From a virus, in IMG/VR virus record IMGVR_UViG_3300022665_000235, positions 1-32,474 of that record: 32,474 nt of DNA; one strand, 5' to 3'. Positions 6,051 to 32,474 of this stretch are shown piece after piece. A program made the translations under genes and the position numbers. How positions within the stretch are numbered: the first letter of the stretch is position 1; every line of letters starts with the position of its first letter. Under the pieces are notes generated by a model. That model had not been told where the DNA came from. It saw only the letters and a list, made by a program, of their open reading frames with translations, and did no database searches.

Positions 6051-6689
6051 ATGGGTTTGTCCTTCGGGGGGTTCACCGAGGCGGTGATGGCTGCGCTCGG
6101 GCACCCCCCTCCAGACCTGGTCTCCAAGGATGAGGTAGCTGGGGTTATCAACGATGCGTACTTCGAGGTGGCGAGGAAGTTTCGTCACCGGAGGATGCAG
6201 AGCGATACGACTATCTCTACTACCTCGGGGACGAATGAGTATGCCCTACCATCAGATTATTTCTGGATGCGAGTGGTGAGGGATGAGACCAACAACGAGA
6301 ACCTGTTGTCTAGAAGCCTAGCCTTCATCCAATCCAGGAACGATGGGATCAATTCCCAGCCCCTGTATTGGGCTACCGAGGACTACAACATTATCCTCGA
6401 CCCCACCCCTGACGATACGTACACGATTAGGCTCTGGTACTTCGCCCGACCCGCCCGGCTCGTGGTGGCCGTGGATAAGAGCATCTTTGAGGACGAGTGG
6501 GATGAGATCATCAAAAGAGGTGCGGAGGCCAAAGCCTTCTACCTCATGGGGGAATACGATCGACAGATCCATGCTAAGAATCTTCAGAGAAGTCTGATGA
6601 ACGACATCCAGGAGACCCAGGTGCTTGAGCAGGCCACCGGGGTACAGGTAGCTGGACCTCTTACGACTTTGAACGAGCCGAGGCTCTGA
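6051..6689 (+). CDS. Head-tail adaptor/connector protein
   Basis: The protein has 212 aa and is mostly helical, with a DEVAGVINDAYFEVARKFRH opening helix, a beta segment with EYALPSDYFWMRVV, and a C-terminal helix that binds neighbouring rings (GAEAKAFYLMGEYDRQIHAK). The N-terminal helix, ALPSDY strand and YWATEDYNIILDPTPDDTY turn are typical of the P22 gp4/T7 gp11-type adaptor family that sits under the portal. It follows the capsid gene directly, as in many podoviruses. A GGGAGG ribosome site lies near 6039. The stop overlaps the next start by one base. Confidence 0.7.
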   Translation: MGLSFGGFTEAVMAALGHPPPDLVSKDEVAGVINDAYFEVARKFRHRRMQSDTTISTTSGTNEYALPSDYFWMRVVRDETNNENLLSRSLAFIQSRNDGINSQPLYWATEDYNIILDPTPDDTYTIRLWYFARPARLVVAVDKSIFEDEWDEIIKRGAEAKAFYLMGEYDRQIHAKNLQRSLMNDIQETQVLEQATGVQVAGPLTTLNEPRL

Positions 6690-9253
6690 TGCCGACACTA
6701 GACGCTGAGGGAGGGATTGTCATAGATGTTGGGACGGCTGTCGCTCCGCTTCCTGGAGAGCAGATAGGCCAGCTACAAACCAAGCAGTACGAGACGCTGT
6801 CTTCCTCCGACATCGACACGCTCACTATCGGTACGGGGTCGAGCCCCTCGCTGACTATTCAGAGAGTGGTGGCGGGCTCCACTGTAGGCTCCTGGCAGTG
6901 GACGATGGACTCCTCTAACAACCTGATCCTAGATCGGGTTACCGGAACGGGTATCTACGTCTGGAATGAAGTGGGAGCTTCTGTAGACTTCCGGATGGAG
7001 GGCGATACCGACACGGAGGTGTTCTTCCTAGATGGGAGTGAGAACAGGGTTGGGTTCAGCACCACGACTCCGGCAACCCTGGTGGACATACAGGGAGCCC
7101 TGACAGTCAACGGCATCCTCTCGCAGGATGACGTAACGGACACTACCTCTACTACTACGGGCTCCATCCACACAGATGGGGGGATAGGAATAGCCAAAGC
7201 TCTTTGGGTTGGGACCACATCCAGGCTAGTAGGCAATGTCACCATAGACGCTGGACTTCTAGCTGCCGGGAATGACCAAGGAGCAATTGGAGCGAGCGGG
7301 ACAGCATTTAGCGATCTCTTCCTCGCCTCTGGTGCCGTTATCAACTTTGCTGCTGGGGATGTTACCATAACCCATGCGACCGACAAGCTGACCCTGGGTG
7401 GCACAACAGTTGAGTTCGACTTCGCTAACCACGAGATGACGAATGTAGACATCAACTCCGGAGCGATTGACGGGACTACGATAGGGGCGGCCTCGGTAGC
7501 CGCAGGATCGTTCTCAGCGGTTGTTGGAACCACCGGAACTTACTCTGGAATTCTCTCAGTTGACGATACTACGGACTCTACCTCCACAACCACTGGCTCT
7601 ATTCACACAGACGGTGGGCTTGGAGTCGTACTGGACACCTTCCTTGGTGCAGACGTTACCATCACTGATCAAGTGACCATTGGAGGTTCTATTGAAGCCG
7701 GTTCGATCTTCAACATTGAGCCTGGTGTAGCAGCGAGAGATATTCTCACCAGTGTTGGAACTGGATTGCACATTGAAGCAGACTCTCAGGCCATTAATGC
7801 CACTGGGAATGGTGAGACGGTTGCTATTGGAGCCCTGGCCTTTTTTGGCATTCCGACGTGGACCTCAGTTGGAACCACGTTCACTATCTCAGACGCTGCT
7901 ACCCTGTATGTTCAAGGGCCACCCGTTGGTTCAACGAATGTCACACACACCCGTGAATACGCCCTGTGGGTGGATGCTGGAGACACGAGGCTTGACGGCG
8001 ACCTGATTCTGGATGGAACCCCAGAACTATTTATCAATGATACCACCAACGCCAACATGACAATAGGACTGACGATTAACCAGGGGGCGAATGACGATGT
8101 TATTCTTGCCCTTAAGTCCAGTGATGTTGCACACGGTCTTACCAGTACCCTAGAAACCGACACATACTATCAAATCCAGAAGGCCAATGCCACATTAGGC
8201 GGCGCCTTTATTCGCACCTTGGGGGAAGATAGCGCCTCGCTACAGGTTGTATGGCAAACCCGCACCTCTGGTGGGCAAGCAGATACCACCAAGTCCACTC
8301 TTGGCCGTAGCCTCATTGAATTTGTAGCCGAGGAGCATGATGGGGCTGATAGCGCAACCAATGTCACGGCGGATGGGAATGTGTTCGGAGTTCGCGCCCT
8401 CGTTGGCGGTGCGTTTATCACTCGTTTTATTGTAGATGAAGACGGAGACACTTGGCAGAATGGCAGCATTTTTGTCAACGAGTCTGCCAATGCCAACATG
8501 ACAATAGGACTGACGATTAACCAAGCAGGAAATGAAGATCAATCATTCTGCATAAAAAACACTGATGTCGGTCATGGATTGACCACAATAACCGATATTG
8601 ATGTAGAGACAGACGATGTGCTAACCATTCGGAAAGCACAAACTTTTGGTGGTGCTATATTACAAGCCACGCATAACGACGCAAGTAATACTCCAACATT
8701 TCGCTTTCTTGCCTATGGTGGAACAGCAACAGCAGTTAAAACAACCTCCGGTCGGTCGTTGATAGAGTTTGATGCCTATGAACATAACGGCGCAAACGCG
8801 CTTGCGAATATTGCTGCTAACGGAAATGTGTTTGGAATAAGAGCGCAGGTAGGTGGAGCGATAGTAGCTCGCTTCATTGTAGATGAAGATGGAGACATTT
8901 TCACAGTCACCGTTGTGGATGTTACTGGTACAGGAAACGCTGTACCTTCAACAGCATTTGATGAATATGATGATGCTCAACTCATTCGAGCATTGGACGT
9001 GGCTCGTACTCCAGCAGCCCTCATTCGTTCGCAGTGGGATGAACATGTAAGGTATAACGAACAGTCACTAATTGATGCTGATATTCTTGGTGCTCCCATT
9101 GATGAAGGGGGCATGACCAACGTCACCCAACTCCAACGCCTCCACAACGGCGCGATCTGGCAGGCTTATGTCGAACGTCAAGAAATGAAAGAGGTAATTG
9201 CGAGACAACTTGGTCGTATTAAAAAGCTGGAGCGGCTGCTACCGGCAGCATAG
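6689..9253 (+). CDS. Long tail fibre/receptor-binding protein with repeated modules
   Basis: The protein has 854 aa, almost free of Cys and rich in Thr, Gly, Asp and Asn, in short beta repeats. A TSTTTGSIHTDGG motif recurs at about residues 153 and 297, spaced 144 residues. A longer module (ANMTIGLTINQ ... GRSLIEF ... NVFGIRAQVGGA ... RFIVDEDGD) occurs twice, spaced 147 residues, at about residues 450-590 and 595-740. The C-terminus has an ALIRSQWDEHVRY helix and a charged coiled-coil end (QEMKEVIARQLGRIKKLERL), suited to trimerisation. No S74 peptidase chaperone motif is visible. The likely role is host attachment. The last about 700 bases are visibly more AT-rich than the flanking genes, suggesting exchange of the receptor-binding part. 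Confidence 0.75.
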   Translation: MPTLDAEGGIVIDVGTAVAPLPGEQIGQLQTKQYETLSSSDIDTLTIGTGSSPSLTIQRVVAGSTVGSWQWTMDSSNNLILDRVTGTGIYVWNEVGASVDFRMEGDTDTEVFFLDGSENRVGFSTTTPATLVDIQGALTVNGILSQDDVTDTTSTTTGSIHTDGGIGIAKALWVGTTSRLVGNVTIDAGLLAAGNDQGAIGASGTAFSDLFLASGAVINFAAGDVTITHATDKLTLGGTTVEFDFANHEMTNVDINSGAIDGTTIGAASVAAGSFSAVVGTTGTYSGILSVDDTTDSTSTTTGSIHTDGGLGVVLDTFLGADVTITDQVTIGGSIEAGSIFNIEPGVAARDILTSVGTGLHIEADSQAINATGNGETVAIGALAFFGIPTWTSVGTTFTISDAATLYVQGPPVGSTNVTHTREYALWVDAGDTRLDGDLILDGTPELFINDTTNANMTIGLTINQGANDDVILALKSSDVAHGLTSTLETDTYYQIQKANATLGGAFIRTLGEDSASLQVVWQTRTSGGQADTTKSTLGRSLIEFVAEEHDGADSATNVTADGNVFGVRALVGGAFITRFIVDEDGDTWQNGSIFVNESANANMTIGLTINQAGNEDQSFCIKNTDVGHGLTTITDIDVETDDVLTIRKAQTFGGAILQATHNDASNTPTFRFLAYGGTATAVKTTSGRSLIEFDAYEHNGANALANIAANGNVFGIRAQVGGAIVARFIVDEDGDIFTVTVVDVTGTGNAVPSTAFDEYDDAQLIRALDVARTPAALIRSQWDEHVRYNEQSLIDADILGAPIDEGGMTNVTQLQRLHNGAIWQAYVERQEMKEVIARQLGRIKKLERLLPAA
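8024..8905 (+). repeat. Duplicated 147-codon module inside the tail fibre gene
   Basis: Two consecutive modules, about 8024-8464 and 8465-8905, align over their whole length at protein level. They share an identical 32-bp DNA stretch (8051-8082 and 8492-8523) exactly 441 bp apart. The rest has diverged, and the second module is richer in A/T. The identical DNA block within diverged modules suggests either recent gene conversion or a recombination anchor. Confidence 0.8.
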
Positions 9254-9261
9254 GAGAAACG

Positions 9262-9510
9262 ATGGCATTGAAAAAGATTCGCCGGACCAAACCACTGCTG
9301 GTTCCTGTTGCAATCAACTACACGACAAAGACGTTCGTGGGATTTAGTGTGATGACGGATGACCAGAACAACGTGACAATCACCGCTCACTGGTTAATCC
9401 CCCGGGATGATGGGACGATGGATAGGGCTACAACCGGGGTCGATGCTGCACCCATCCGTGCTATCACCGGCTTCAACGCAGTGGTAGATGCTATAGTAGC
9501 AGCCAGTTAA
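9262..9510 (+). CDS. Hypothetical protein after tail fibre (82 aa)
   Basis: The product is 82 aa, with a basic N-terminus (MALKKIRRTKPLLVPVAI) and beta-type segments (TTKTFVGFSVMTDDQNNVTI), ending in AVVDAIVAAS. The start follows a TAGGAG ribosome site, eight bases after the fibre stop. A small protein directly after a fibre gene could be a fibre assembly helper or a minor tail component, but nothing in the sequence proves this. It is the last gene before the structured RNA region at 9571. Confidence 0.6.
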   Translation: MALKKIRRTKPLLVPVAINYTTKTFVGFSVMTDDQNNVTITAHWLIPRDDGTMDRATTGVDAAPIRAITGFNAVVDAIVAAS

Positions 9511-9570
9511 TAGGAGGTGGACACCGAAATATTTAGTCGTATTCTGTATATGGGTCTCTGACACCGTCTC

Positions 9571-9872
9571 ACCCCGTGGCTGTGTGCCTGTTCCGCCACC
9601 AAGACGGGAAGGAATTCAGGTTCGAGGAAACTCAAATGGCTGACTGCACCTCTGAAAGCAGCGGGCTCGGCGTATAGGGGACCGAGCAGCCCCGATGAGT
9701 CTTGGGGGAAGGAAAAGAAAGTCCCGCCGGGCCCTGCTCATCACCCGGCGGGAAGTGGAACCTGAATTCGGCTGACTACAATCTCCAGGTGGTGGCAATA
9801 TGGCTAACTCGGTGCCGTTTGTCCACCCTCCCGGTTCTTCCCCTTCCCCAAGGGGTTCCGACCCGGTGTGTC
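9571..9872 (+). ncRNA. Structured RNA, copy A (about 300 nt, unassigned class)
   Basis: No credible gene covers 9511-9905. The region holds nested complementary segments. The closing helix is a perfect 12 bp (9612-9623 with 9758-9769). Inside it are GAG-GAAA-CTC (9624-9633), CTGC/GCAG (9644-9647/9658-9661), GCTCGG/CCGAGC (9665-9670/9682-9687), CCCC/GGGG (9690-9693/9704-9707) and a 10-bp hairpin (9722-9731/9744-9753). The loop GATGAG (9694-9699) is complementary to CTCATC (9737-9742) in the 10-bp hairpin loop, giving a kissing or pseudoknot contact. A 5' hairpin GTGGC/GCCAC (9576-9580/9595-9599) and a 3' hairpin GGTGG/CCACC (9788-9792/9823-9827, inner GGCA/TGCC) flank it. A homologous copy with compensatory changes lies at 23559-23889 on the other strand. 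The RNA ends 33 nt before the next start codon. I do not recognise the class; it could be a cis-acting leader, an antitermination element or an independent phage RNA. Confidence 0.75.
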
Positions 9873-9905
9873 TATAACTGTGAAATACTAGGAAATAGGA
9901 GGGTT

Positions 9906-10175
9906 ATGCGTAAGACGCAGACGAAGCCCAGCCGGATATCGAAGAAAGAGTCTGATCTAGATATCCTTCTGACGAAGGAGCAGGTAGCGCAGATCCAGTC
10001 ATTACAGGCTCAGATCAACGAAGCTCAGAACCGGCAGGGACTTTATATCAAGGCTATCCTGGATAGTGTAGGGATTGAAGGTCAGGTACGGATCAAAGGG
10101 CCTATCAAACGTGGAAACAAGTTCTACCTCGAAGTGACCAAGATCACTAACCCAAAGACGAACGGGGAAGTATGA
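9906..10175 (+). CDS. Hypothetical protein between structured RNA and holin (89 aa)
   Basis: The frame is open further upstream, but the ATG at 9906 has a strong AGGAGG ribosome site five bases before it, and upstream codons lie in the structured RNA. The 89-aa product is basic at the N-terminus (MRKTQTKPSRISKKE), has a helical middle with heptad-like spacing (VAQIQSLQAQINEAQNRQGL) and ends in a small beta unit (RIKGPIKRGNKFYLEVTKI). Its stop overlaps the holin start (ATGA), so both are co-translated, which hints at a lysis- or particle-related role. Function unknown. The RNA leader may control it and the genes behind it. Confidence 0.7.
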   Translation: MRKTQTKPSRISKKESDLDILLTKEQVAQIQSLQAQINEAQNRQGLYIKAILDSVGIEGQVRIKGPIKRGNKFYLEVTKITNPKTNGEV

Positions 10176-12868: not shown

Positions 12869-14863
12869 ATGCCAAGGCATATTACAGGAACAACTGCACG
12901 GCCCGAAGGTAGCACCCAGGTCGACTTAGCCCCTCAATTCCTCAAGAAGGGCAGGGAAGGCTTTGCCGGGCTTTTCACTTTCCTGTTGCAGCAGGCAGCT
13001 GAAAAGGGTGGTTTCCCGGCTGAGCTTATAGCTCGATTATTTGGAGGAAGAGAAGATGGGGTAAGAGAAGATGGGGGAAGAGAAGATGGGGTAAGAGAAG
13101 AGGGGGGAAGAGAAGATGGCGCCCTTCCAGCTGAGGTAGCAACTCTTCCTGCGCTACCCGTCCTACCTACCATCCCTGGGTTGCCAGGCTTTCTAGAGGG
13201 AGAGGGCAGAGGTCCCAACGTCGCTGCTGCGGTAGCCGTTCCAGCGATTACGTCTCTGTTTGCCTCGCTGTTCGGAGGTGGGGGATTACTACGTGGAGGA
13301 GCACCGGAGCTTCCTACACCGGTGGTTGGAGGTGAAGGCAATATCACTCCTATCTTCCCCGACATGAATCAACAGCAGCTCCAGCTCTTTTTGCAGTTGC
13401 TTCAGCAGTTGAGTACCGGAGGCCCTGCTGCGGCACTTTCCGGAACTGGAGGACCCGCCGCAGCCCTAGGCCCTAATCCATTGACTGCTGATGCAGTAGC
13501 ACCTTCTGATCCTCTAGGATTGCTACTTGAGCAACAGAAGACGGCGCCTAGTTTGACGCCAGAAGGGGCAGCTCCCGGAGGTGCTCTAGTCCCCCAACTT
13601 CCAGCCGGTATTACTGGAGATAAGGCACCGCCGACTTTACCAGGAGGGGAACCACCTCCGGCTGACTTTGATCCGTTAGCAGCAATAAGGTCCTCTCTTG
13701 GGTTTGATCCAACTGGTGTTGTAGACCCCAATCAAGCTCCATTAAATTTCCAAACACTTGGCACTGCTTTATCAAATGGTGGCGGCGGTGGATTTCCGTC
13801 GACTGAGGAGATTGTTCCAGGTGCCACGGATATTGGTAGTACGCTCCCACTAGATATTGGAGATGTCGGAATAGATCCAGTAGAGATTGATCCAGGGATT
13901 GATGGTGAAGGGAATGGCGGCGGAGGGAATGGAGTAGACCAAACCCAAGCTGATCAACTCAACAGCTTCCTAGAGCAGATCCAGAGTGGGAATCAGTTCC
14001 AGGACTTAGCTCAGTTCTTCAGCCTGCCTACGTTCGAGGGCCCCTTCACCACTCCGGCTACTGATCTTCAGCGTCAGGCTCTCGGAGCTAGCTCTGAGTT
14101 CCTCGGGACGGACCTTGGAGAGCGTAACCAAGTGGCCCAGGATGCTCTCCAGGAGCTTATCAGGACCGGGGGAGAGGGTGCCCCAGGGGTAGACCCGCTG
14201 GGTCAATTGACGCGGGAGACCTCCGCCGATCCGACGTTGAATGAGTTCCTCAAGACAGGAGGGGGAAGGTTCGATCTCTCACCACAGTTCAGTGCTCTTG
14301 AGGCGATCAACAAGCGAAGACTGGATGAGCAGATTGCTCGGCAGAGAGAACAGTTCGGAGTGCTCGGAGGACGGTTTGGAACCGATATAGCCAGGGGAAG
14401 AGGAGAGCTAGAGTCTCGCTTCTTGGAGGCGGAGTCCGGACAGCGGGCTGAGATTGCTGGGCAGTCGTTCAGAGAACAGCAGCAGCGTCGCCTAGCCTCG
14501 CTGGGTCTTGCTAGTGGTAGAGATATCGCCAGAGAAGGACTGGGTGTTCAGGCGCGGGGTCAGGAGCTAGACCTTCAGACACTTCTCCAGAACGTCTTTG
14601 CGGGGCAGCAGACGAGAAGGTTACAGGGCTTGGGGCTTGGTGAACAACAGCGACAGACCGACATAGCGGCCAGAGGGCAAAGAGGTAGGGAGATCACCGA
14701 AGGCTTCAGGCTTGGAGAAGCCGAACGTCAGATAGGTGACACGGCTATCCAGAGACAGTTAGCGGAGTTCGGCAGAACCCAGGGTGCATTACTTCCGATG
14801 CTGTTACAGTTCTTCTCTCAGGGTGTAGGAGAAGAGACTCTTGTACTTGACGAGGAAGGGTAA
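12869..14863 (+). CDS. Putative ejection/internal virion protein 1 (664 aa)
   Basis: The gene encodes 664 aa in two halves. The first is Pro/Gly/Ala-rich and of low complexity, with five tandem REDG-type pentapeptides near residues 60-84. From about residue 465 the protein is helical and full of Gln, Arg and Glu (RRLDEQIARQREQFGVLGGR, FREQQQRRLASLGLASGRDI). Helical, Gln/Arg-rich proteins after the tail hub are typical of podovirus DNA-ejection proteins (compare P22 gp7, gp20, gp16 by position only). It is followed after three bases by the next large gene. No enzymatic motif is seen. Confidence 0.5.
   Translation: MPRHITGTTARPEGSTQVDLAPQFLKKGREGFAGLFTFLLQQAAEKGGFPAELIARLFGGREDGVREDGGREDGVREEGGREDGALPAEVATLPALPVLPTIPGLPGFLEGEGRGPNVAAAVAVPAITSLFASLFGGGGLLRGGAPELPTPVVGGEGNITPIFPDMNQQQLQLFLQLLQQLSTGGPAAALSGTGGPAAALGPNPLTADAVAPSDPLGLLLEQQKTAPSLTPEGAAPGGALVPQLPAGITGDKAPPTLPGGEPPPADFDPLAAIRSSLGFDPTGVVDPNQAPLNFQTLGTALSNGGGGGFPSTEEIVPGATDIGSTLPLDIGDVGIDPVEIDPGIDGEGNGGGGNGVDQTQADQLNSFLEQIQSGNQFQDLAQFFSLPTFEGPFTTPATDLQRQALGASSEFLGTDLGERNQVAQDALQELIRTGGEGAPGVDPLGQLTRETSADPTLNEFLKTGGGRFDLSPQFSALEAINKRRLDEQIARQREQFGVLGGRFGTDIARGRGELESRFLEAESGQRAEIAGQSFREQQQRRLASLGLASGRDIAREGLGVQARGQELDLQTLLQNVFAGQQTRRLQGLGLGEQQRQTDIAARGQRGREITEGFRLGEAERQIGDTAIQRQLAEFGRTQGALLPMLLQFFSQGVGEETLVLDEEG
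13046..13120 (+). repeat. Five tandem 15-bp repeats in frame
   Basis: Units start at 13046, 13061, 13076, 13091 and 13106, with consensus GRAAGAGAAGATGGG (second base G or T). They alternate between GGAAG and GTAAG openings, suggesting an original 30-bp doublet that duplicated. Each unit encodes one charged pentapeptide (GREDG, VREDG). The number of units can change without breaking the frame. Confidence 0.9.
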
Positions 14864-19800: not shown

Positions 19801-21753
19801 GGGATACCTTTTGTACGGGCACAACACCGTCTCACTACAGGCAAGAAGCGTCAGCTCACCGAAGCCTTCCCGTTCCTCAAGCGGATCGATAAGGCTGGAA
19901 AGGGTCTCTCTGTTCGGGAAATGGATGCCGTAGGGGAGTTCTGGAGAGACATCGAGAACATCCCGAACTTCATCAACAAGACCGATCGGGTAGCGGCGGC
20001 TCGTTCGGCAGGACTGAGCCAGAAACAGATCACCTACATGGAGGATCTACACGACACGTTCAACGCCCTGTTCATCGAACACGCTCAGAAATACTTCGGC
20101 CTGACGTTCGAGAAGCATTTCCAGTTCACCTATTTCCCTCGCATCCAGCCGCAGTTGCAGAAGGGCGGGTTGTTCCGTGGTGACCAGTTCCTGGGTAAGA
20201 ACGCCTCCGTACCCGGGACGTGGGAGCGGTTCATCTCCAAGTACATGCGTACCGGCGAGCTAGCCCAGACAGAGATCAATCCTACGCTGGTAGCCAAGAG
20301 ATACGTCAATAGCTTCTTCTTCGACAAGAACGTCAGTAGTGCCTACGAGGAGCTGGCTGGGTTGACCCGAATGCGGCTCAAGGACTTGACACCGGAGGCG
20401 CAGAAACAAGTCCAGCAGACGTTGGGGCTCAAGGCTGGGGCCGATGCGTTTGTACTACCCGATGCAATACGTGCTCCAATCAACGAGATGTTGGGCTACA
20501 TGAGAGGCTACCCGCAGGAGGCTGCCGAGAAAGGGGCGGCGTTCTTCCAAGCGTTTGCTCGGAAGCTCGGAGTAGATCTACCACGGGAGGCCGTCTCAGA
20601 GTTTGTGAATAACCAGATCGCGGCGTGGTATGGCGCGGCTATGGCTGGAAGAATGCGTCCGATCGTGAGGAACGGTATCCAGAACATGTGGAACCTCTAC
20701 ACCCGATTGGGTGGCCCAGCTATGGGTAAAGGCTTCCGCGTTGCCGCTACCGATGAGGGTTGGCAGGAGGCTCTTGCAGCAGGAGCCTTCCGGCTAGAGG
20801 AGAGGGGTGTAGCTGCCGGTGAGGTGGTCTTCGAGCGGATAGCGGAGACGCTACCTATCAAAGCGATCAAGGGTGGTGCGATTACCGGTCCACTGGCTGC
20901 GACTATACTCCGTGGCTTTATGAGACTAGGCCGTCAGGCCAAGAGAATCGGTGAGTTCGGTCTCAAGCCTTTCGGTGGGTCTGACACCTGGAACAGGGTC
21001 TGGGCCTATCACGCCCAGGTGGAATACACCAAACCGTTACTGACTCGGCTCCGTAAGGGCACGATAACCCAGGGAAAGTTTGAAGAACGAGCACTCTTTG
21101 GCTGGGGGCAGGGAGAGCGGAAGGAGTTTCTCAGGCTCCTAGAGCAGAGGGGTGACGAGAAAGCCCTGGAGTATCTGGGTGTTGCGGCGGCGGATCTATC
21201 CAACTACGTGTACGGGCTCTCCGCTCAGCCACTAGCGTTACAGTCCACGATCGGCAGGCTGTTTGGGACATTTGGTACCTGGCCTCTTTGGCAGAAGGAC
21301 CTGATCCTAACGAACCTGAAGAACACCAACGCAGCGGGGAAGATGTTGATGGCTACCCGGTATGCTACGGTAGCTGGAGCGGTAGGTACTATCGGCTGGA
21401 GCTGGGGTGTGAACATCATGAGTTGGTTCGGCCCCTTGGCTCCGCTCTCCTACGCGATGGGTCCCGGGTCCGACTTCGCCGTTGACCTTAAGTTGGCGAT
21501 AGAGAGTCCGTGGGCTAAGCGACTGATGCTGGATTATGGAAGGCTCTCCTTTCCGGGGCAGTTACTCTACAAGGACATCACCAATGCGATGAGGGATAAG
21601 GCTAGGTTGGGAGACGGACGAGCAGCGATCGCGGCCATGCTGTTTGGACGCCCCACCGAAAGAGGGCCCCACGTCTTCCAGTGGCAGGAACAGCAGATTG
21701 CGGAGACCCTCACCCAGCCGACGTTGCCTTTGCGTCCGGCTCTGTTACGCTAG
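16849..21753 (+). CDS. Very large internal virion/ejection protein (1634 aa)
   Basis: This is the largest gene, 1634 aa. Hydrophobic segments lie near residues 180-225 (LLGSFAGILVPFTMILKA, IAPLLADMAGFFAYGALT) and near 1500-1545 (ATRYATVAGAVGTIGWSWGV, IMSWFGPLAPLSYAM). Between them are long helical, charged stretches, and around residue 1060-1150 a conserved-looking block (NIPNFINKTDRV, QKQITYMEDLHDTFNALFIE, FQFTYFPRI). Very long proteins with this layout at the end of podovirus late operons act as ejection proteins that cross the envelope, like T7 gp16 by analogy. I see no clear lytic transglycosylase motif. It is ATGA-coupled to the previous gene, and its TAG shares a CTAG with the stop of the convergent gene. 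Confidence 0.55.
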   Translation: MTEFTAGAPTRLATLQAELDAQLEGTGDVTRAFLSMEPEGRAANLQRLLDRQLSSFGAVDLNLLNDPRPEVQRVAQQGLIQPPGPESIAQHGTPPNVTMIEFIDVGGKSFVAGLASGLIRPLEHVPIIGSQIVRPYLSPIVERLNQSALKAVAEAIADMPGADVPGLLQAVSTGGTLLGSFAGILVPFTMILKASRALLVAGKTGSAVVGPGIAPLLADMAGFFAYGALTNEPGLIQSFVSGDQTVETHQQNFFRELQDRITTGVFSAGELGGLSIALTTTVRAVQALRQTRAIAEATRTQVALGEILERGRPVTPGVRPTEKSQMAQELLAGVENGNTIDAAGGILAHVPSDANVAAARARLAMQNEIIARNPQALQMIVEGEQPIVAAMQSLRGLPEGKGSFLVWNKIEDVSTFIPRVRAAAQAEARIAIAENAVTDGLAHTSGEIARLAAEAPNVPIFRAYGTGPGVKEVLSSDVARAARRRPQGVDVQEFILQPSSAAKIKRVETYDELLAGGKDFRKVLNGLRSAQAELLVVEKGKGGLQEVIPLTDDVMRSVRPVEEGLLQGRGPVRTAVEGAEVIGLGPEADIPAQVALARRFSDMEFATRPVPGEPGLVDVLAWQKSSPLTEEAIKAFAEGESFIAGQTVYYQGAEYSFVRSAGEKSVVIRTLEGRNKTVRTSNVLPSATGTPVSVSMEAAMAERFIGFANEQIDLAASQALGRKGLTDLAKTLDDAGNMKRDIRLKGEEVVLPEELGVDVASRVKAEAADLKAGLDAGDPTVLIQEPHPILGEFDAIWNRWVKAEGLSLTAAESETLKGVAARTFRERLYSELPVIDRELYESISDELAGTIAKALEERPLEAWAALEGVQIRKLPDGRVEMGRVGTRRAEVLPDEETALRVLREGSSTVREDLQHGLEYLGVSMPGRINSAMPGFQAEGDMIFNRLAPDAARIVTRAHQATEHGVPGAQLKSMMRFFSLLDEQTGIPFVRAQHRLTTGKKRQLTEAFPFLKRIDKAGKGLSVREMDAVGEFWRDIENIPNFINKTDRVAAARSAGLSQKQITYMEDLHDTFNALFIEHAQKYFGLTFEKHFQFTYFPRIQPQLQKGGLFRGDQFLGKNASVPGTWERFISKYMRTGELAQTEINPTLVAKRYVNSFFFDKNVSSAYEELAGLTRMRLKDLTPEAQKQVQQTLGLKAGADAFVLPDAIRAPINEMLGYMRGYPQEAAEKGAAFFQAFARKLGVDLPREAVSEFVNNQIAAWYGAAMAGRMRPIVRNGIQNMWNLYTRLGGPAMGKGFRVAATDEGWQEALAAGAFRLEERGVAAGEVVFERIAETLPIKAIKGGAITGPLAATILRGFMRLGRQAKRIGEFGLKPFGGSDTWNRVWAYHAQVEYTKPLLTRLRKGTITQGKFEERALFGWGQGERKEFLRLLEQRGDEKALEYLGVAAADLSNYVYGLSAQPLALQSTIGRLFGTFGTWPLWQKDLILTNLKNTNAAGKMLMATRYATVAGAVGTIGWSWGVNIMSWFGPLAPLSYAMGPGSDFAVDLKLAIESPWAKRLMLDYGRLSFPGQLLYKDITNAMRDKARLGDGRAAIAAMLFGRPTERGPHVFQWQEQQIAETLTQPTLPLRPALLR

Positions 21754-22916: not shown

Positions 22917-23179
22917 CTCCGAATAGCCCAAAGACCGCGATGCCAGCGGTGATTCCAGCAGTACCGTGATCGTTTGAATGGCGGACCTCCGCAGGGAGCG
23001 AAGAGGCCGTTGCTAAACCGCCTCGCTGCTCGGCACCCCCCACCGTGGAGGTGACGTTCGACCCATACTGGGCTGACCCCGCCTACACGACTGAGCAAGT
23101 ATTCCCGTGTGACACGGTAGGGCTCGGGCACGTCCTTCCAGTTCACCATCGGTTCTCTCTTCGGACCGTGTTTCCTCAT
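22859..23179 (-). CDS. Hypothetical Cys/His/Trp-rich protein (106 aa)
   Basis: The gene is ATGA-coupled to the one before it, with GGAG six bases ahead of the ATG. The 106-aa product has an N-terminal VNWKDVPEPYRVTREYLLSR helix region that may bind DNA, then a cluster of Gly, Cys and His (HLHGGGC, CGGPP, YCWNHRWHRG) suggesting a metal site. The end is basic and aromatic (WIKDYRRPYLASLPLPW). Family unknown. Its place between two replication-type genes suggests replication or regulation. Confidence 0.55.
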   Translation of the reverse strand: MRKHGPKREPMVNWKDVPEPYRVTREYLLSRVGGVSPVWVERHLHGGGCRAARRFSNGLFAPCGGPPFKRSRYCWNHRWHRGLWAIRRWIKDYRRPYLASLPLPWQ

Positions 23180-23526
23180 TTCTGCTCCTGCAGCTGACGC
23201 CGGGCTTGATCGAACGGGGTCTCTGTGGACCAGTCTTCTTCCCAGCCACCACCGTCTCCGAGGAAGGTTGCGGCCTGCATCACAAACACCGACCCGTTTC
23301 CATGATGGAAGCCACAGTAACGGCGGTACTCATTTGCCTTCTCGATAAGCAGGTCGGAGGTGACGCCCTTCTGGTGGATGAGTCGCCCGAAACACTTCCG
23401 CGCCTGGGGCCAACGCTGACCTCCTCGCCGCAACGGATATACTTGCTGGAACCGCTGAAAGAGGATGTCGGTAGCAGTCAGTCTTTCTTTCGTTTCCGTC
23501 TCTTTACCACAGTGAGGGCACTTCAT
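23176..23526 (-). CDS. Replication-type protein with N-terminal zinc ribbon half-site
   Basis: The protein has 116 aa. CPHC at residues 3-6 starts it. The body is a helical domain with LFQRFQQVYPLRRGG, RWPQARKCFGRLIHQKG and a closing AATFLGDGGGWEEDW. The pattern F-x-x-F-x-x-x-YP, then an A-x-K/R helix, then a T-x-L-x-x-x-x-W end is common in C-terminal domains of phage replication-initiation proteins. It is the first gene after structured RNA copy B, whose end lies 32 nt upstream; a TAGGAG site precedes the ATG by nine bases. Levels of this protein are therefore a plausible target of the RNA. Confidence 0.55.
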   Translation of the reverse strand: MKCPHCGKETETKERLTATDILFQRFQQVYPLRRGGQRWPQARKCFGRLIHQKGVTSDLLIEKANEYRRYCGFHHGNGSVFVMQAATFLGDGGGWEEDWSTETPFDQARRQLQEQK

Positions 23527-23558
23527 GGCGCATTTCTCCTACGTTTTTTAGATAGAGA

Positions 23559-23889
23559 ACAGACCGGGGGGAACCCCTTTGGGGAAGGGAGAGAATGGAC
23601 AAGAGGGGTGAAGCAGTGCATATTACCCTCGCCTGTGGAATTGTAAGCGCCCGACTTCCTTCCGGGTCCTTTTTCAGATTGATTCTCAGGTCCCCAGCCC
23701 TGCCGGTGACGAGCAACGATCCGGCGGGGCTCCCTCTTTCCTTCCCCCAAAGCTCGTCGGGGCTGCTCGGTTCCTAAGCCGAGCCCGCTGCTTTCCGGAG
23801 TGCAGACAGCCCATTGAGTATCTCCGACCTGAGTATCCTTCCCATTTTTCGTGGTGGTTCACAGGAACGGCCACAAGGATCACGGGGTA
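23559..23889 (-). ncRNA. Structured RNA, copy B (about 330 nt, unassigned class)
   Basis: This is the homologue of the RNA at 9571-9872, on the opposite strand, in a gene-free stretch (23527-24000). Read on the - strand it keeps the order of elements: ACCCCGTG, a GTGG/CCAC hairpin, GGGAAGGA, closing helix CTCAGGTC/GACCTGAG (+ positions 23826-23833 and 23685-23692), a GAG-ATA-CTC hairpin, CTGC/GCAG with a GAAA-type loop, GCTCGG/CCGAGC, CCCC/GGGG, a GCCGG/CCGGC hairpin, an AATATG-loop hairpin and the end CCCTTCCCCAAAGGGGTTCC. The loop contact is GACGAG (23753-23758) with CTCGTC (23708-23713); copy A has GATGAG with CTCATC, a compensatory change. Two closing-helix pairs also change from U-A to C-G. 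No open frame explains the conservation. Confidence 0.75.
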
Positions 23890-23934
23890 GGAAACCTTTC
23901 CTAGTATGCCCTCAAAAAATTCTGCCGTCCAGTC

Positions 23935-23981
23935 TTGCAAAATGCGAGACTTAGAACTCCTAAGTATTGCAAAATGCAAGA
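23935..23981 (-). promoter_or_regulatory. Operator-like array upstream of RNA copy B
   Basis: Two 15-bp direct repeats, TTGCAAAATGCRAGA, lie at 23935-23949 and 23967-23981, 32 bp apart (about three helical turns). Between them is an inverted repeat, ACTTAG (23949-23954) and CTAAGT (23960-23965). Part of each repeat is itself dyadic (TTGCA/TGCAA). The arrangement suits a DNA-binding protein acting on a promoter that makes RNA B and the replication genes. I could not assign clear -35/-10 boxes. The rest of 23890-24000 shows a GTGTA/TACAC inverted repeat at 23982-24000. Confidence 0.45.
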
Positions 23982-24000: not shown

Positions 24001-24225
24001 CTACTTCCTGAATCCTTTGACTGTCCAGATACCGAGCCAGGCGAGCCCCCGCACAGTGAAGGTACCACCGACCCAGCCGACTACAGCACCTGTCAGCCAC
24101 ACCAACACTTCGTACTCGAACCACCCATAGCGTACGGTGTTCACGATGAAGAAGACTGTCCAGGCGACTGTGATACCACCACCGATAACGAGGCTCAGAC
24201 GTCTGATACCTTCGGGTGTCTTCAT
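24001..24225 (-). CDS. Small two-transmembrane protein (74 aa)
   Basis: The product is 74 aa with two hydrophobic helices, about residues 10-31 (LSLVIGGGITVAWTVFFIV) and 40-58 (VLVWLTGAVVGWVGGTFTV). They are joined by a short NTVRYGWFEYE loop, and the ends are basic. It could be an inner-membrane protein made early, for example an antiholin, superinfection or host-takeover factor. None of these can be shown. It starts about 30 nt after the dyad at 24257-24280, which may control it, and is followed by the operator array. Confidence 0.6.
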   Translation of the reverse strand: MKTPEGIRRLSLVIGGGITVAWTVFFIVNTVRYGWFEYEVLVWLTGAVVGWVGGTFTVRGLAWLGIWTVKGFRK

Positions 24226-31914: not shown

Positions 31915-32077
31915 GAAATAGTCCTTTCTCCCGACCATGCTCGAAGGCTTCGTCGGTCAGCCGTCCTTCGCGGCAGACAGCGCACTCGTCATGCTCCTCG
32001 CCGTTGTTGTACTGGCCTTCCAGTAAGGTGCCGCACTTACAACAAGGCTTGGTTTCTCCGAGATAGTAGGTGGTCAT
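31907..32077 (-). CDS. 56-aa zinc-ribbon protein at the head of the leftward operon
   Basis: The start is the ATG at 32077 with a GGGGCGGGGA element before it and an ATGA overlap with the 25-aa frame. The product has 56 aa and two Cys pairs, CCKC (residues 13-16) and CAVC (about 33-36), with a GEEHDE loop, forming a small zinc ribbon. The C-terminal tail (EAFEHGREKGLFRD) is charged. Being second in the operon, it is probably made very early. Its start codon is exactly the outer edge of the 125-bp inverted repeat. Confidence 0.6.
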   Translation of the reverse strand: MTTYYLGETKPCCKCGTLLEGQYNNGEEHDECAVCREGRLTDEAFEHGREKGLFRD

Positions 32078-32151
32078 TTCCCCGCCCCCTGGATTAGGTA
32101 AACCTGTTGACAGGTCATACACCCACATTCGAATTCGTGTGTCACAGTCAT
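32074..32151 (-). CDS. 25-aa leader microprotein
   Basis: The ATG at 32151 follows GAGGGA by seven bases. The 25-codon frame (MTVTHEFECGCMTCQQVYLI at its start) has three Cys (C-x-C-x-x-C) and ends at a TGA that overlaps the next ATG (ATGA). The ribosome site and coupling favour translation; it may be a leader peptide or a tiny metal-binding protein. The complete frame is also present in the opposite direction in the second arm of the inverted repeat. Confidence 0.5.
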   Translation of the reverse strand: MTVTHEFECGCMTCQQVYLIQGAGK

Positions 32152-32199
32152 GGCGTATTCCCTCACTTTGTGGGTCTGTACACCCTACAACAACCTGCA
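32075..32199. repeat. Inverted repeat, arm 1 (125 bp)
   Basis: This arm is the exact reverse complement of 32350-32474, the last 125 bases of the window, with no mismatch. It carries the ribosome site and the whole 25-aa frame of the leftward operon except the first base of its stop overlap. Next base pairs inward (32200/32349) do not match. Confidence 0.95.
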
Positions 32200-32397
32200 C
32201 CCTACAACAACCTGCATGAATCGTACCGCAACTGCAAGCTCACTTCAGCAACACCCTCCCTCTCGCCCCCGTATTCCCTTGGGTTAGCCCGTATACACCG
32301 TAACTATTAAGGACTTAATACCTTAGGATACCACACCAGTATAGGATTCTGCAGGTTGTTGTAGGGTGTACAGACCCACAAAGTGAGGGAATACGCC
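32152..32397. promoter_or_regulatory. Leader/promoter region between the inverted arms
   Basis: The centre (32200-32349) contains no gene. It holds a perfect dyad, ATTAAG-GA-CTTAAT (32306-32319), AT-rich DNA on either side with TATA-like boxes on both strands (TATACA at 32292, TATAGG at 32341), and the two-copy 17-bp repeat. It is the only place upstream of the leftward operon where a promoter could be in this window. I could not choose definite -35/-10 boxes. Confidence 0.45.
32181..32214. repeat. Two tandem 17-bp repeats, third copy in arm 2
   Basis: CACCCTACAACAACCTG occurs twice in a row (32181-32197, 32198-32214), and once inverted at 32352-32368. Repeats of this length just upstream of an early operon can be operator or iteron sites. 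Only the first tandem copy belongs to the mirrored arm. Confidence 0.8.
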
Positions 32398-32474
32398 ATG
32401 ACTGTGACACACGAATTCGAATGTGGGTGTATGACCTGTCAACAGGTTTACCTAATCCAGGGGGCGGGGAAATG
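32350..32474. repeat. Inverted repeat, arm 2 (125 bp), at the window end
   Basis: Reverse complement of 32075-32199. Read on the + strand it contains a ribosome site and the 25-aa frame from its ATG at 32398, running off the window edge at the last codon. The window stops exactly at the position that mirrors the ATG of the 56-aa gene. Confidence 0.95.

Follow-up and report, generated by a model that had tools for sequence, protein, structure and literature searches.

Two related elements lie in opposed gene units of an uncultivated phage

The window, that is, the whole stretch of DNA that was analyzed (32,474 nt), corresponds to positions 1-32,474 of IMG/VR virus record IMGVR_UViG_3300022665_000235, an uncultivated phage. 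Up to position 21753 the genes lie on the plus strand and include a portal fragment, the capsid, the holin, and other structural genes, and beyond 21753 a block with DnaD-like, HNH, and Gam-like genes lies on the minus strand. Each of these units contains one copy of a related sequence:

9518-9890 (approximate), plus strand: copy A, delimited by alignment with copy B and by CM match; core 9610-9770
23545-23931 (approximate), minus strand: copy B, matched by a CM built on copy A alone; core 23838-23681

Copy A occupies the gap between the ORFs at 9262-9510 and 9906-10175 in the rightward structural/lysis unit, immediately upstream of a small ORF and the holin gene. Copy B sits between the ORFs at 24001-24225 and 23176-23526 in the leftward unit, immediately upstream of the DnaD-like replication (initiation) gene. 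Both copies are intergenic, run in the same sense as the flanking genes, and end near the next start codon.

The CM from the core of copy A alone recovered copy B with a score of 106 bits (E 1.7e-23), and it found no third copy in the window. blastn aligned 163 bases of the two copies at 78% identity and a further 38 bases at 84%. The similarity sets in at TGGAC and tapers off ahead of the next start codon; the genes on either side are dissimilar. Copies A and B are paralogous intergenic elements that have diverged on opposite strands. The element is most likely a structured RNA of roughly 310-370 nt. A 29-nt stretch just 3' of the closing helix in copy B (23656-23684, minus strand) is missing from copy A.

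Other repeated sequences were observed in the window. Directly upstream of copy B, positions 23934-23981 contain repeated and inverted TTGCATTTTGCAA-like words, which are possibly an operator or promoter region. The 854-aa protein gene at 6689-9253 has internal repeats at 8030-8900 with a spacing of ~440 bases (81% and 70% identical), and the ORF at 12869-14863 includes five 15-bp units arranged head-to-tail (13042-13116). At the contig end there is a perfect 125-nt inverted repeat (32075-32199 and 32350-32474) with 150 nt between the arms, which is possibly a fold-back assembly artefact.

The core is predicted to form a multi-branched domain

Comparison of A with B outlined the core as a multi-branched domain, which is closed by helix P1 and has hairpins H3-H6 inside and H1 outside on the 5' side:

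9615-9622/9759-9766, plus strand: closing helix P1 of copy A, UUCAGGUU/AACCUGAA
23833-23826/23692-23685, minus strand: closing helix P1 of copy B from the comparison with A, CUCAGGUC/GACCUGAG
9564-9607, plus strand: H1, the 5' hairpin of copy A, CCGTCT/AGACGG with inner GTGGC/GCCAC; copy B has CCCGT/ATGGG at the same place
9644-9661, plus strand: H3 of copy A, CTGC/GCAG, stem invariant between A and B
9665-9687, plus strand: H4 of copy A, GCTCGG/CCGAGC, stem invariant between A and B
9690-9707, plus strand: H5 of copy A, CCCC (9690-9693)/GGGG (9704-9707), bearing the first loop of the contact
9722-9753, plus strand: H6 of copy A, CCCGCCGGG/CCCGGCGGG (9723-9731/9744-9752) plus a basal pair, bearing the second loop

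P1 differs between A and B by two double changes, as expected from an earlier note on this DNA that had proposed two compensated pairs in the closing helix. The basal pair of H6, U9722-A9753 in A, is C-G in B. The pair probability of H5 was ~0.83 in A and 0.59 in B, and that of the inner part of H6 exceeded 0.97 in both copies. As a counter-observation, H6 of copy B contains one internal C.A mismatch at a site that is C-G in A.

Standard pairing was found in 98.8% of the cells for 41 pairs including the seven loop-loop pairs, and it fell to 32-43% when the partners were slid by 1-3 columns. The paired sites were more often identical between A and B (72/81) than the unpaired sites (48/75; Fisher P 2.6e-4). 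When the structure was fixed, only one of the 41 pairs was broken against a null mean of 10.0, and none of 5000 trials was as good, which is partly because those sites are conserved. The consensus fold of the core in the sense direction scored z -5.0 against column shuffles; the folding energies of the single sequences were no better than those of shuffles (z -0.39 and +0.22). Functional constraint, which the earlier note had also claimed, is well supported for a structured RNA by the two diverged copies, the conserved pairing, and the lack of similarity in the flanks. We conclude from this two-copy comparison that the fold is probably under constraint.

The loops of H5 and H6 are complementary in both copies

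The earlier note had proposed a contact between two loops, and all four of its loop strings were found at the positions given (GATGAG, 9694-9699; CTCATC, 9737-9742; GACGAG, 23758-23753; CTCGTC, 23713-23708). The U-A to C-G compensatory change between them was borne out as one double change between the copies. The complementarity turned out to be longer than first described and comprises seven pairs, GAUGAGU/GCUCAUC in A and GACGAGC/GCUCGUC in B:

9694-9700, plus strand: loop 5 of copy A, GATGAGT, the 5' side of the contact, complementary to 9736-9742
9736-9742, plus strand: loop 6 of copy A, GCTCATC, the 3' side of the contact, complementary to 9694-9700
23752-23758, minus strand: loop 5 of copy B, GACGAGC, complementary to loop 6 of copy B
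23708-23714, minus strand: loop 6 of copy B, GCTCGTC, complementary to loop 5 of copy B

The seventh pair counts as a half change, with U9700.G9736 in A and C-G in B. Pairing across the copies would be poorer, with a wobble between loop 5 of A and loop 6 of B and a C.A mismatch between loop 5 of B and loop 6 of A. H5 and H6 are adjacent, with a linker of ~15 nt.

Column permutations confined to the loops rarely produced seven consecutive pairs common to A and B, either between H5 and H6 (P = 0.0018) or between any of the 15 loop pairs (P = 0.0023). Counts that were blind to the structure gave weaker values: over the whole element, three covarying stems of at least seven pairs were present against 0.8-0.9 expected (P 0.04-0.07), and the total of double changes gave P 0.03-0.04. 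The observed covariation was reached by 53 of 500 shuffles with a covariation-counting tool. If the loop strings are instead read as a nested helix, the fold is worse than the two hairpins by 7.9 kcal/mol in A and 4.8 kcal/mol in B; RNAalifold chose the nested form on the sense core. A loop-loop contact is the best reading, given the strong prediction of the two hairpins in A and in B and the poorer energy of the nested form, and the loops of H5 and H6 very probably pair. We take the complementarity to be real and unlikely to have arisen by chance, but two sequences are too few to make the case conclusive. As for the pseudoknotted tertiary fold that the earlier note had claimed, the loop complementarity stands and is best read as a loop-loop contact, but a single double change does not bear so strong a claim. 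Two molecules could also be joined by this contact, because covariation does not distinguish pairing within a molecule from pairing between two.

A long-range helix competes with H5

A second conserved pairing shares bases with H5, including its G-run:

9700-9709, plus strand: 5' strand of the competing helix in copy A, complementary to 9844-9853
9844-9853, plus strand: 3' strand of the competing helix in copy A, within the conserved 3' segment
23752-23743 with 23586-23577, minus strand: the counterpart helix in copy B

It raises the question of whether complementary loops amount to a stable kissing contact, as H5 may be metastable and either this long-range helix (9700-9709/9844-9853) or the nested helix may be the stable form. 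All 10 pairs of the long-range helix are kept in A and in B. Its one double and one half change equal the covariation of the loop contact, and the helix is present in the minimum-energy fold of copy B; the preference of RNAalifold for the nested form points in the same direction. However, a fold constrained to contain the long-range helix is 14 kcal/mol worse in A, as compared with 1.3 kcal/mol in B, and the helix crosses the well-supported P1. In each copy the two hairpins are better than the nested form by 5-8 kcal/mol. We consider these readings, in which the loops form no stable kissing contact, quite unlikely. A switch that alternates between kissing loops and the long-range GGGG/CCCC helix is possible. 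An extended form of this idea, in which a phage RNA of a new class, ~310-370 nt long and with one copy per opposed unit, acts as a two-state switch between the kissing domain and the long-range helix and couples lysis/late and replication gene expression, seems distinctly improbable.

The gene strand is the more likely strand, and each copy contains a short ORF

Each element also contains a promoter-like sequence on the opposite strand:

9797-9825, minus strand: promoter-like TGGACA-N17-CATATT of copy A, antisense to the element, identified by sequence pattern
23596-23624, plus strand: promoter-like TGGACA-N17-CATATT of copy B, antisense to the element, with hexamers identical to those of A

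The window contains exactly two instances of this 29-nt pattern, one per element and both antisense, and the hexamers of the pattern are kept although the spacer has diverged (5/17 bases match between the copies). It could start a functional transcript from the opposite strand. Consensus folding of the core was slightly better in the antisense direction (z -6.5 vs -5.0 in the sense direction), and H6 of copy B is uninterrupted only in the antisense direction, where a G.U pair replaces the C.A mismatch. On the other hand, the hexamers agree with the sigma-70 consensus in just 9 of its 12 positions, and their letters may instead belong to a terminal helix (TGGACA 9518-9523/TGTCCA 9820-9825), a purine-rich stretch, and an AATATG start-like site. 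In addition, the unpaired positions of the gene strand are purine-rich (A 31-38%), which is usual for structured RNA read in that sense and favors the gene strand, and the loop contact includes a U.G pair when read on this strand. The sense reading is thus more likely, and an antisense transcript, although improbable, is a real rival.

The conserved AATATG begins a short ORF in each copy:

9800-9877, plus strand: short ORF of copy A, MANSVPFVHPPGSSPSPRGSDPVCL
23523-23621, minus strand: short ORF of copy B, MHCFTPLVHSLPSPKGFPPVCSLSKKRRRNAP

The two ORFs have 25 or 32 codons, differ by a 9-nt in-frame gap, and share the purine-rich stretch and AATATG; that of copy B overlaps the following gene through a terminal ATGA. 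Codon changes read by eye did not favor third positions. The short ORFs could encode a shared leader peptide.

Searches for relatives and known RNA families

No family in Rfam 15 scored above its gathering score in the window, and each copy gave only chance-level matches (E up to 5). The Rfam models of GOLLD and ROOL gave no match at any threshold tried, including permissive ones, and neither tRNA nor tmRNA was found in the window. An attenuator based on an intrinsic terminator was rejected, as neither region has a terminator-like site (a G+C-rich hairpin followed by a U-run). A cobalamin riboswitch and a group I intron were rejected too: short strings resembling cobalamin riboswitch boxes are present but their order is wrong, and GACTA of copy A, considered for a group I intron, is missing from copy B. 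A UAGUC/GACUA helix joining the 5' and 3' parts was discarded, being weak and clashing with other pairings.

A third copy was not found when IMG/VR was scanned with four DNA patterns and four protein scans and genome contigs with one pattern; in the pattern matches inspected, the structure was not formed and the model scores were at chance level. blastn against phages and plasmids returned nothing or chance pieces. The models detected nothing in ~80 loci of capsid relatives or in 19 whole virus records besides that of the window. They also detected nothing in 686 prokaryote genomes, a result of little weight because stricter filters apply to large samples and the host was not identified. The nearest phage relative (L005, capsid protein 75% identical) is the sole close one, and its sequence ends before the copy A region.

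Possible roles of the element

In purine and cobalamin riboswitches, a multi-branch domain is locked by hairpin-loop pairing. The element resembles them in having a multi-branch domain that hairpin-loop pairing may lock, whereas it has no Rfam match and its cobalamin-like boxes are misordered. The pRNA of phi29 is a small phage RNA that works by loop-loop pairing, with intermolecular contacts; the element shares the loop-loop pairing, here a probable one, but comes from another kind of phage and is without an Rfam match. GOLLD and ROOL are large RNAs encoded by phages, and covariation supports their kissing loops (PMC12286853). The likeness lies in these kissing loops: in the element, two hairpin loops are complementary over seven pairs in both copies and covary. 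In contrast to GOLLD and ROOL, the element is shorter, lacks an Rfam match, has no tRNA genes in the window, and is present as two paralogues per genome. HK022 provides a precedent for a phage with a pair of similar cis-acting RNAs, putL and putR, whose action on RNA polymerase suppresses termination (PMC9378689). The likeness here is in layout only, namely that structured RNAs of similar sequence occupy two transcription units of the same phage (PMC9378689), with A on the plus strand in the rightward unit and B on the minus strand in the leftward unit. The put RNAs are ~70 nt, consist of two stem-loops, and lie behind early promoters, whereas the element is several times longer, multi-branched with a loop-loop contact, and placed mid-operon; the core by itself measures 160 nt and has at least four hairpins.

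A rival reading is a trans-acting or self-assembling non-coding RNA in two copies, in which the contact would join two molecules as in phi29 packaging RNA or GOLLD/ROOL cages. Covariation is blind to this distinction, phage ROOL and GOLLD do use intermolecular kissing loops (PMC12286853), and both copies have a promoter-like sequence at the 5' edge (TGGACA-N16-TATTCT in A, TGGACG-N17-CATACT in B). Against it stand the absence of an Rfam match even at a permissive threshold and of a terminator-like site in either region, the better fit of each loop to the partner in its own copy, and the spacing of the neighboring H5 and H6 (~15 nt), which fits an intramolecular contact; we regard this role as unlikely, though it keeps some weight. 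Two copies on opposite strands with dissimilar flanks, the position of copy B beside a replication gene, and the short inverted ends TGGAC/GTCCA could instead reflect a DNA element with no RNA role, either a single-stranded DNA structure such as a lagging-strand initiation site for each strand or mobile or duplicated DNA such as an inserted repeat. This is very improbable, considering that the conservation runs past the inverted ends to ~9871, that no target-site duplication was seen, that one copy has G-U at some of the conserved pairs, and that A and B each follow the direction of the transcription unit around them.

The placement of the element in gene sense, its end just before a start codon, and the presence of one copy per opposed unit suggest a cis-acting RNA. 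Our tentative reading, which we rate a little short of an even chance, is that sense transcripts of the two operons each carry a cis-acting structured RNA whose H5 and H6 loops kiss and which controls the downstream genes. The kiss between H5 and H6 would be intramolecular and would lock the domain. To judge from its position, the RNA would act in cis inside each long mRNA. It may control transcription read-through or translation of the downstream genes, and the two opposed transcription units would then answer to one signal or carry the same polymerase-modifying RNA. Since only two copies are known, neither the fold nor the job is proven.

Known structured phage RNAs of this size are few, and for most of them a function is lacking. 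A diverged pair in one genome provides an internal comparison that supports the fold without outside relatives, and the presence of one copy per opposed unit suggests a specific and testable role in cis. If confirmed, the element would define a family of RNAs not described before. It might then also solve, in another and unrelated way, the problem that HK022 meets with its put RNAs.
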